A DNA stretch of 64,000 nt. It comes from Phycisphaerales bacterium PN19_bin_20 (GTDB lineage: Bacteria; Planctomycetota; Phycisphaerae; Phycisphaerales; UBA1924). The stretch is taken from assembly GCA_021173225.1 (NCBI GenBank), contig JAJOLK010000008.1:1-64000 (forward strand), read 5' to 3'. Both the position numbers and the translations under genes were made by a program. Numbering within the stretch: the stretch's first letter is position 1; every line of letters starts with the position of its first letter. A model generated the notes under the pieces. It saw only the letters and a program-made list of their open reading frames with translations, was not told the origin of the DNA and made no database searches. Below, piece by piece: positions 2,296 through 5,660 of this stretch.

Positions 2296-4677
2296 ATGCT
2301 CACGCGAAACACGCTGTCTGGCCCCGCCGCAATTGCCGCGGTTCGCACGTCGGTCATGATCGCTTCGCTGACGCTGCTCGCGGGCGCAAGCGTCGCGCAG
2401 CCAGCGACTGCGCCAGCTGCTGAAGTGCCCGCGCCGCACACGGCCAACAACACAACTTCCCCCACACTCGCCCCCACGCTCGCCGAAATGCTGCAGGGCC
2501 TGAGCGCCGACGAGCAGGTCTTCCACCAGCACCTGGTCACGCTGACCAGCCCGTTCTTTGAGGGCCGCGGGCCCGGCACGCGCGGCAACGAGCTGACGGC
2601 CGAGTACCTTGAGTTCTTCTTCCGCGGCAGCGGGCTCAAGCCTGCGTTCCCAGACGCCGCGCAGCTCAAGGCCACCGAGCCCGAGGCGGGCCAGGCCGAA
2701 GCGCAGCCCGCGGCCGACAAGCCCGACGCGGCGGCGGCAGCGGCGGCGGCTTCCGCCAAGCGGCTTGCGGCGCCCAAGGTCGCCTTCCGCCAGGCCTTCC
2801 CGGCGGGTCGCAAGGTCAGGGTCAACGCGCAGGAGGTCAAGTTCAGCACCGCAGGTGGGGCGACCACCGGCCTTGAGCCCACCAAAGACTTCACCGTCCG
2901 CGGCAACTCTGGCAACGGCAAGATCGAGGCGCTGCCGGTGGTCTTTGTTGGCTACGCGATCCAGGACGGGCCCGATGGGTACAAGACCTTTGCTGAGGGC
3001 GATGACCTGACCGGCAAGGTCGCAGTCATGCTGCGGTTCGAGCCCTTGGACGGCAAGGGTGCCAGCCGCTGGACCAAGGACGACGGCGGCGGCTTCACGC
3101 AGCGCGCGGCGCTCAGCTCCAAGCTGCAGGCCGTGATCGAGCGCAAGCCCGCGGCCGTGGTGCTGGTGATGCCGCCGGGTGTTGATGACCCGCGCGCCGG
3201 CACGCTTGAGACGACCGCGGGCACGACCCGGCGCGAGCGCGTGCAGAGCGTGCCAGTGATCAACGCGAGCGTTGAGGCGGTCGATCGGCTCGCGCGTGCG
3301 GCGGGCACGACGCTGGCCGAGCTGCGGGCCGGGGCCGACACCGCCGGTGGCGTGCGCGAGCTTGCGGGCGTGACGGTGAGCATGGACGTAGGGGTCTTGC
3401 GTGAGGCGACGATGGTTGACAACGTCGGGGGCGTGATCCCCGGCGCCGGCGTGCTGGCCGAGCAGTACGTGGTCATCGGCGCGCACCTTGACCACCTTGG
3501 CTACGGCGACAGCGGCTCACGCGGGGGCCCAGCGGCCAACGGCAAGCTGCACCCGGGGGCAGATGACAACGCCTCGGGCACCGCCGGGCTTCTGCTCGCC
3601 GCCGAGATGCTCGCCCGTCAAGCCGCTAAGCAGGACCAGCAAAGCGGCAAAGACGGCACGCCTGCGCAGCGCCGCTCGATCATGCTGCTGGCCTTCAACG
3701 CCGAGGAGAGCGGGCTGATCGGCTCGCGGTTCTTCGTGGCCAACGCGCCGGTCTCGGCCGAGAAGGTTGACGCGATGCTCAACATGGACATGATCGGCCG
3801 CGTCCGCAACGACCGGCTTGAGGTCTCGGGCGTCGGCAGTGCAGAGGGCTTTGCCGACATGCTCAAGCCGCAGTGGGATTCCAGCGGGCTCTCGGTCAGG
3901 ACGCTTCCGGGCGGCAGCGGGCCCAGCGACCACGCGAGCTTCTATCGCGCGGGCATCCCCGTGCTGCACTTTTTCAGCGGGCTGCACCCTGAGTACCACA
4001 TGCCTTCTGACCTTTACCCGACGGTCAACACGCCCGGGGCGGTCAAGGTCGTGCGCACGGTGGTGAACGTCGCGGCCATGCTCGCCGCGCGACCCGAGGG
4101 GCTCAGATACACCAAGGCCACCGGCCCGAGCATCGACATGAACATGGACCGCGAAAACATACGGCCTGCGACGCCGCCGAGCGCCCCGACGCCAGCAGGT
4201 GAGCCCGCCACTGAGCCCGCCAATAAGCCCGCCCAGAACCCGCGATCTGCCGCGCCTGAGGCGGTCCCAACACCCACGCCCGCGACCACTCCCGTCAGCG
4301 TTACTCCGACGCCCGCCTCGCCCCACTCGGGCGATCAAACGGCGTCCACCGGCACAGGCGTGCCTGGTACTGGCGTGGCCGGCACTGGCATGGGCGGCTC
4401 GCGCGTCCGGTTTGGCATCGCCCCGGGTGACTACTCAGGCTCGGGCGGCGGGGTCGAGGTCGCAGAGGTCTTCCCCGGCACGCCCGCGGCCGTCGCGGGC
4501 CTCAAGCAGGGCGACCGCATCATCAAGTGGAACGACACAAAGATCACCGACGTTGAAGACTGGATGCCCCAACTGACCCGCGCGAACCCCGGCGACAAGG
4601 TCACCATCACGCTGCTGCGGGCGGGCGAGACGGTCGTTGTGGAGTGCGTGCTGCGGGCCCGTGGCGGGGCCGAGTGA
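2296..4677 (+). CDS. Exported M28-family zinc aminopeptidase with PA insert and C-terminal PDZ domain
   Basis: 793 residues. An N-terminal hydrophobic signal (about residues 18-35, ending near A-S-V-A-Q) suggests export. A protease-associated region (about 200-370) precedes the M28 catalytic domain, in which all expected zinc and catalytic residues are visible: H397 and D399 in G-A-H-L-D-H, D423 in G-A-D-D-N, E470/E471 in N-A-E-E-S-G, D498 in N-M-D-M-I-G and H568 in E-Y-H-M-P-S-D. A Pro/Thr/Ala-rich linker (about 620-695) leads to a PDZ domain (about 705-790; G-L-K-Q-G-D-R-I-I-K). The family cleaves N-terminal residues of peptides; the PDZ domain may bind partners or substrates. It stands alone between unrelated genes. 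Confidence 0.9.
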   Translation: MLTRNTLSGPAAIAAVRTSVMIASLTLLAGASVAQPATAPAAEVPAPHTANNTTSPTLAPTLAEMLQGLSADEQVFHQHLVTLTSPFFEGRGPGTRGNELTAEYLEFFFRGSGLKPAFPDAAQLKATEPEAGQAEAQPAADKPDAAAAAAAASAKRLAAPKVAFRQAFPAGRKVRVNAQEVKFSTAGGATTGLEPTKDFTVRGNSGNGKIEALPVVFVGYAIQDGPDGYKTFAEGDDLTGKVAVMLRFEPLDGKGASRWTKDDGGGFTQRAALSSKLQAVIERKPAAVVLVMPPGVDDPRAGTLETTAGTTRRERVQSVPVINASVEAVDRLARAAGTTLAELRAGADTAGGVRELAGVTVSMDVGVLREATMVDNVGGVIPGAGVLAEQYVVIGAHLDHLGYGDSGSRGGPAANGKLHPGADDNASGTAGLLLAAEMLARQAAKQDQQSGKDGTPAQRRSIMLLAFNAEESGLIGSRFFVANAPVSAEKVDAMLNMDMIGRVRNDRLEVSGVGSAEGFADMLKPQWDSSGLSVRTLPGGSGPSDHASFYRAGIPVLHFFSGLHPEYHMPSDLYPTVNTPGAVKVVRTVVNVAAMLAARPEGLRYTKATGPSIDMNMDRENIRPATPPSAPTPAGEPATEPANKPAQNPRSAAPEAVPTPTPATTPVSVTPTPASPHSGDQTASTGTGVPGTGVAGTGMGGSRVRFGIAPGDYSGSGGGVEVAEVFPGTPAAVAGLKQGDRIIKWNDTKITDVEDWMPQLTRANPGDKVTITLLRAGETVVVECVLRARGGAE

Positions 4678-4714
4678 GCCGCCCGCGGGCCGGATGCCCG
4701 CGGGGCAAGAGAAG

Positions 4715-4806
4715 CGGAGAGGGGGGGATTCGAACCCCCGATACGCAGTAATACCACGTATAACGGTTTAGCAAACCGCCGCCTTCAGCCGCTCGGCCAC
4801 CTCTCC
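4715..4806 (-). tRNA. tRNA-Ser (anticodon GCU)
   Basis: Reading the minus strand from 4806, the acceptor GGAGAGG pairs with CCTCTCC at 4716-4722, with discriminator G at 4715. The D arm (GCCGAGCGGC), an anticodon loop with GCT, a long class II variable arm and the T arm GGTTCGAATCC are all present. The long variable arm and the anticodon identify it as the tRNA for AGC/AGU serine codons. The CCA end is not encoded. Confidence 0.96.
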
Positions 4807-4967
4807 GGCGCAAACCCGTCGGCGGGCTCCGTCGGTCTGGACCCAATGGTCCAAGGGTCTATTGTCGGCACGCCGTGGGTTCGGGTCAACTTTCCACAGT
4901 CAGCAATCCGCGCCGCGAACCAGTTTTTCACGTCACGCTCAGACCTGTCCCTGCCCGAGCCGGCCCT

Positions 4968-5660
4968 ATGCCCGAGCCTGTCTGGACCACTCTGAGCGTC
5001 GCCGCGGCCAGTGAGGCCGAGACCGCGCGATTCGCCCAGGCGCTCGCGCCGGTGCTGGGCGTGGGCGATGTCCTGCTACTTGATGGCACACTCGGCGCGG
5101 GCAAGACGACCTTCGTGCGTTCGCTGGCTGAGGGCCTCGGCCACGACGCGCGGCTGGTCAGCAGCCCAACGTTCGTGCTGGTCAACCGCTACGCAACGCC
5201 AGGGCAGATCACGCTGCTGCACGCCGACGCCTACCGCCTCACCGACGGCGACGAGCTCGACACCCTCGGCCTGAGCGGGGCCTTGGCCGGGCACGATGAT
5301 GTGGTCCTGGCCGTCGAGTGGCCCGAGCGCCTTGGCGGTGGCCTTGCCCTCATTCCGCCCGCGCACCTGGCGCAGCTACGCCTCGAGCACACCGGGGTTG
5401 AGTCGCGCCAGCTGACGCTGGTAGTCCCAAGTGCGTGGGGCCGTCGGCCTGGGTTCGGCGCAATCGCGATGCTGGCGGGGAACGCCCAGCGACCGGCCAC
5501 GCGCTGCCCGGTGACGGGCGATGCGGTTGCGCCCGACAACCCATGGTGGCCGTTTGCAAGTGAACGGGCCCGGTTGGTTGACCTTGGCAAGTGGCTCAGC
5601 GGGTCGTACGTCATCAGCCGTGAGCTGACGCAGGACGACATGGATGAGGGGCCGGGTTGA
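4968..5660 (+). CDS. tsaE: TsaE (tRNA t6A biosynthesis ATPase) fused to a degenerate YacG-like C-terminal domain
   Basis: From the ATG at 4968 the protein has 230 residues; an in-frame ATG at 4875 would add 31 residues that do not look like TsaE. Residues 1-140 match TsaE: Walker A G-T-L-G-A-G-K46-[12 protein letters not shown] and H-A-D-A-Y-R-L. TsaE is the ATPase partner of TsaB/TsaD in making threonylcarbamoyladenosine at position 37 of ANN-decoding tRNAs. Residues about 180-222 resemble the DNA gyrase inhibitor YacG (C-P-V-T-G...[18 protein letters not shown]), but three of the four zinc cysteines are replaced (T183, A197, A201). The fusion seems real because the frame is continuous. The role of the tail is unknown. 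Confidence 0.88.

Follow-up and report, generated by a model that had tools for sequence, protein, structure and literature searches.

A TsaE ATPase fused to a YacG domain that has lost most of its zinc ligands in a clade of Phycisphaerales

The fusion of TsaE, the ATPase of t6A synthesis, to a C-terminal YacG domain lacking three of its four zinc ligands occurs lineage-wide in one clade of Phycisphaerales; sister lineages have fusions with intact cysteines as well as unfused tsaE-yacG neighbors. With moderate confidence we favor a bifunctional protein that unites the t6A ATPase with a zinc-independent YacG, most likely still binding GyrB.

The window is the whole stretch of DNA that was analyzed, 64,000 nucleotides long. 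In it a single open frame of 230 aa spans positions 4968-5660, with the stop codon at 5658-5660; an alternative in-frame start is possible at a GTG at 4875. The gene and its parts are as follows.

4968..5660, plus strand: TsaE-YacG fusion gene, 230 aa (ATG at 4968; start inferred from the start of the TsaE domain and from relatives)
5007..5408, plus strand: TsaE ATPase domain, aa 14-147 (PF02367, E 1.2e-32; Foldseek matches to TsaBDE, 6s84/6n9a; invariant columns)
5409..5501, plus strand: linker, aa 148-178 (P154, W157 and R160 kept in alignment columns)
5502..5645, plus strand: zinc-less YacG domain, aa 179-226 (PF03884, E 1.6e-9; same place by genome search; fold match to 4TMA)
5505..5507, plus strand: C180, sole remaining zinc ligand (58/58 zinc-less relatives)
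5514..5516, plus strand: T183, at the place of ligand 2 (ligand table)
5556..5558, plus strand: A197, at the place of ligand 3, A/F/I/H in others (ligand table)
5568..5570, plus strand: A201, at the place of ligand 4, Ala in 95% (ligand table)
5592..5594, plus strand: W209, equivalent to the E. coli YacG position 40 inserted into GyrB (alignment to 4TMA chain I; 58/58; PMC10886550, PMC5507300)
5616..5657, plus strand: acidic C-terminal tail, aa 217-230 (from the share of acidic residues beyond the Trp)

That TsaE is fused to YacG, as a sequence-only reading had claimed, was borne out by the match of both Pfam profiles in one open frame. A stop at the junction was absent from the same fusion in dozens of independent assemblies, and this recurrence rules out a frameshift or assembly artifact. 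The TsaE half scored 113 bits against PF02367 (cutoff 26.6) and passed the NCBIfam model TIGR00150 (90.9 bits, cutoff 60.1). Its Walker A motif reads GTLGAGKT and is accompanied by the conserved H85-x-D87 and E117-W118; across 38 sequences G43, G45, K46, T47, H85, D87, E117 and W118 are invariant. In the window genome TsaD scores above its profile cutoff, and a candidate TsaB falls slightly short of its own. The N-terminal half would serve TsaD-TsaB as the ATPase of t6A synthesis.

Upstream, thiL (thiamine-phosphate kinase) precedes tsaE in 61 of 89 tsaE loci, identified by TIGR01379 in L024:539-1483 and by motif in the others. The window has no thiL before tsaE, and a tRNA-Ser (4714-4806, minus strand) stands in that place. 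The protein encoded at positions 2296-4677 of the window, 793 aa long, weakly resembles aminopeptidases and carries at its C-terminus a PDZ domain similar to that of HtrA/DegS.

The YacG-like character of the tail was confirmed by profile: PF03884 matched aa 179-226 with 37.7 bits, above its curated cutoff of 25.5, and the tail on its own reached E 8.1e-11. The YacG equivalog models NF002362 and NF001638 matched below their cutoffs (43.7 bits for a cutoff of 79, and 23 bits for one of 83). When the zinc-less set was compared with four-cysteine (C4) YacGs by hhalign, a probability of 99.4% and E 3e-21 were obtained. A match by chance is ruled out by Pfam, hhalign and Foldseek. As to a separate yacG, the genome search (3.1 Mb, 91% complete) found no second YacG above cutoff, and the weaker matches scored 11-14 bits.

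The fusion was modeled with AlphaFold2 without templates from 38 sequences, giving a pLDDT of 91.4 overall and mostly 80-94 in the YacG part; helices are predicted in the linker at 155-159 and 163-169. The pTM of 0.75 means that the relative orientation of TsaE and YacG is not fixed. With the whole model as query Foldseek returned TsaE matches only. With a model of the tail only (pLDDT >90 in the domain core) the first three hits were chains of gyrase-bound YacG (4TMA) and the fourth was 1LV3, at E-values that are weak (0.013), the domain being small. Chain I of 4TMA superposed on the tail model with a TM-score of 0.81 by target at 2.1 Å, and VIA-align of the tail model and 4TMA gave Z 5.5 at 1.7 Å over 45 residues, compared with Z 2.3 for unrelated chains. 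The predicted structure is thus compatible with a YacG fold, a compatibility and not a proof, since AlphaFold may recall the YacG fold.

In the window protein the four ligand places are occupied by C180, T183, A197 and A201, so that the four-cysteine pattern is gone and the proposed loss of most zinc ligands holds for three of the four. Among 73 fused loci, 58 are zinc-less (about 52 distinct after subtraction of genomes seen twice; G069 was found later and is additional) and 15 have four cysteines. Four cysteines were also found in 12 separate YacGs of Phycisphaerales and in 37 other loci, and among the loci compared no unfused YacG had lost its zinc ligands; the zinc-less state occurs only in fused proteins. 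In the zinc-less set ligand 2 is Thr or Ser (two rows scored P and F by the script read T in the printed sequence), ligand 3 is Ala, Phe, Ile, His and others, and ligand 4 is Ala in 95%. The clade has conserved residues of its own: ligand 3 is followed by D/S, Ala stands at ligand 4, and H/Y replaces the G of DLG. This DLG, near the contact helix, has become DL[HYN] in most zinc-less copies; the window copy retains it. Cys180, the lone former ligand, is kept in 58/58 zinc-less domains though its partner ligands are gone.

A shorter spacing had been counted as part of the degenerate pattern. The distance from the first to the third ligand is indeed short in comparison with E. coli (17 in the window protein), but 17 is typical of Phycisphaerales in both zinc states, most C4 YacGs of the order included, and distances outside the order are mostly 20-24. 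The short loop is therefore older than the zinc loss, and as a component of that loss it is ruled out.

When the fusion was sought in other Phycisphaerae, as had been suggested, it was present in nearly all relatives: among 40, the fusion protein was matched in all genomes but one, mostly over both domains, and in several the tsaE and yacG halves are adjoining genes. All 73 fused loci belong to Phycisphaerales or close relatives. YacG itself was found in 106/150 genomes in a class survey and in 101/148 in a phylum survey; outside the order of the window the YacG loci read were small, stand-alone and of the four-cysteine type, and no TsaE was found near YacG in the flanking sequence fetched (roughly 0.3-1.5 kb). 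When named genomes were scanned for the zinc-less motif, 39 loci came up, all fused and zinc-less and all recorded as Planctomycetota, nearly all of them Phycisphaerales and one recorded as Isosphaera sp. It follows from the loci surveyed that, among the genomes examined, the tsaE-yacG neighborhood and the fusion are confined to Phycisphaerales, and the zinc-less form to part of the order. No fusion of YacG to another partner was seen in the phylum; the candidate frames, 190-1500 aa long, proved to be stand-alone YacG inside GC-rich open frames. Four genomes within the order encode a TsaE without the YacG domain (G125, locus L198; G034, L040; G038, L042; G011, L224), and the domain is thus dispensable.

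Outside the order, stand-alone yacG often directly adjoins an FmdB-like zinc-ribbon gene, recognized by motif only (MPTYEYxC..C...FKGSGFYxTDYR; loci L049, L052, L083, L084, L087, L091, L096, L202-L205, L208, L212, L218 and L221), which is a different conserved neighbor of YacG in the phylum.

The order of events was read from a GyrB species marker tree (55 GyrB rows plus E. coli), as a TsaE-only tree was poorly resolved, with 8 changes for each state. On the GyrB tree the family of the window forms two clades, each with a support of 100. The first, of 8 genomes, has six separate C4 YacGs, one fused C4 YacG and one genome without YacG; the second, of 24 genomes including the window, is fused and zinc-less wherever the state is known, except for G146. 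The outer families f2-f5 have fused C4 domains, and in f6 the genes are mostly separate. At minimum the zinc state changes 2 times and the fusion state 4 times, by fusion or by fission. From the contrast of fused zinc-less and separate C4 clades, the loss of zinc took place about once, in proteins already fused; with essentially a single event, loss only after fusion is one case and not a statistical law. The exception, G146 (locus L082), sits within a clade that is zinc-less elsewhere, yet its fused YacG has four cysteines and a loop of different length, possibly through horizontal replacement or misplacement on the tree. G031 carries a second, very divergent GyrB (L167), which groups beside E. 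coli in this tree and is possibly assembly contamination.

Read as a history, yacG would have come to stand after tsaE in this Planctomycetota order and the genes would then have fused; later, in one clade, three zinc ligands would have been replaced, mainly by Ala or Thr. Such an operon pair could also have been joined passively by loss of a stop codon and kept for co-expression, both halves working uncoupled. The separate tsaE-yacG neighbors agree with this, among them G014, where one in-frame stop separates the two genes, as do the at least 4 changes between fused and separate states on the GyrB tree. Nothing speaks directly against such an origin, which equals the favored bifunctional protein minus any coupling; as a full account we nevertheless hold it to be quite unlikely.

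Selection on the zinc-less domain was assessed from 14 pairs of related zinc-less genes. The pN/pS of the YacG part was 0.09-0.46, and in 12/14 pairs it was lower than that of the attached TsaE (simple Nei-Gojobori counts, the pairs not all being independent). The window copy compared with G002 gave 0.46, well below 1. The zinc-less YacG domain is thus under purifying selection and not decaying, and the zinc-less fusion persists in some 20 genomes sampled from the clade, which mostly represent different genera. These values, together with this retention and the specific pattern of replacements at the ligands, refute, for the clade in general, the notion of a non-functional YacG remnant decaying after an accidental fusion. 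The lost metal ligands and the few relatives without the domain would suit such a remnant, which we consider highly improbable.

Both the Trp by which YacG contacts gyrase and its acidic tail are retained. According to a review, the YacG tryptophan inserts into GyrB and the C-terminal region spans GyrB and GyrA (PMC10886550); YacG position 40 (printed F40) and GyrB F513 have been named (PMC5507300). The alignment to 4TMA puts position 40 at the Trp of DLGEW, which corresponds to W209 in the window protein. Its equivalent is present in 58/58 zinc-less domains, PF, D and W being 100% conserved and SR and the acidic tail nearly invariant; the acid fraction after the Trp is 0.25 in zinc-less domains vs 0.28-0.31 in the C4 sets. 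The purifying selection, the retained contact Trp and a predicted fold like that of YacG together favor a retained function over a remnant. GyrB F513, the pocket residue, occurs in every relative as well as in the window genome; since the three genomes without YacG conserve it just as well, it was dropped as an indicator of retained binding. The gyrB of the window genome (L097) encodes a very long GyrB with an Ala/Pro/Thr-rich low-complexity stretch in a C-terminal insert. In the open-access literature searched, gyrase binding by any Planctomycetota YacG was not described.

The retained function could also be a different one. After zinc loss the tail may no longer bind gyrase and instead serve TsaE, either in docking to TsaD-TsaB or tRNA or by stabilizing TsaE. 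In favor of such repurposing, the zinc-less state is seen in fused proteins only, P154, W157 and R160 of the linker are conserved, and the zinc-less clade has conserved residues of its own. However, the invariant residues are those of YacG, including the contact Trp, the predicted fold is that seen in the gyrase complex, and the model does not fix the orientation of the tail to TsaE. We give this alternative an appreciable probability, though short of an even one. In the favored bifunctional protein, packing and tethering would hold the fold in place of the metal in a putatively zinc-free domain, Trp209 would dock in the TOPRIM pocket of GyrB, and the acidic tail would block DNA entry to gyrase. 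The altered DLG of most zinc-less copies and the relatives that lack the domain count against this reading.

TsaE joins TsaDB with ATP and departs after hydrolysis (PMC9654439), and the TsaE cycle on TsaDB might therefore expose or mask the YacG tail. That a tethered, zinc-independent YacG binds gyrase while the ATP cycle of TsaE or its binding to TsaDB, and thereby t6A status or ATP level, directly sets the degree of inhibition seems to us rather unlikely. Mutual regulation of TsaE state and gyrase activity, beyond the two being made in equal amounts, is speculative.

Descriptions of YacG mostly concern a stand-alone zinc protein found in proteobacteria (PMC10886550), and a search of open-access papers yielded no description of a TsaE-YacG fusion. 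YacG is common across Planctomycetota, and in one order it is joined to the t6A ATPase, where zinc ligands have been lost without loss of constraint. Since sister lineages show all stages (separate C4, fused C4 and fused zinc-less), the roles of zinc and of fusion in gyrase binding are testable on natural proteins. Should the domain still bind gyrase, a gyrase regulator would be part of a translation-fidelity protein; if the coupling is true, tRNA modification and DNA supercoiling would be physically linked.

Compared with TsaE/YjeE/YdiB (PF02367, TIGR00150; 6S84, 6N9A, 5NP9), the window protein shares the Walker A, HxD and EW motifs and the fold, and its genome has TsaD and a TsaB candidate, but it adds a C-terminal extension of about 80 aa with YacG. 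With E. coli YacG (PF03884; 4TMA/1LV3) the domain shares the profile, the predicted fold, the PF..R...DL..W core, Trp 40 and the acidic tail. It differs in that three of four ligands are replaced, the loop is two residues shorter and the domain sits on the C-terminus of TsaE; moreover, E. coli YacG is a gyrase inhibitor, whereas the window domain is a putative GyrB binder. Small zinc-ribbon proteins that lack the cysteines and keep fold and job are familiar from the zinc-lacking (C-) forms of the ribosomal proteins L31, L33, L36 and S14. Those forms exist as stand-alone paralogues and are linked to zinc limitation, whereas here the zinc-less domain is the only copy, and it is fused.
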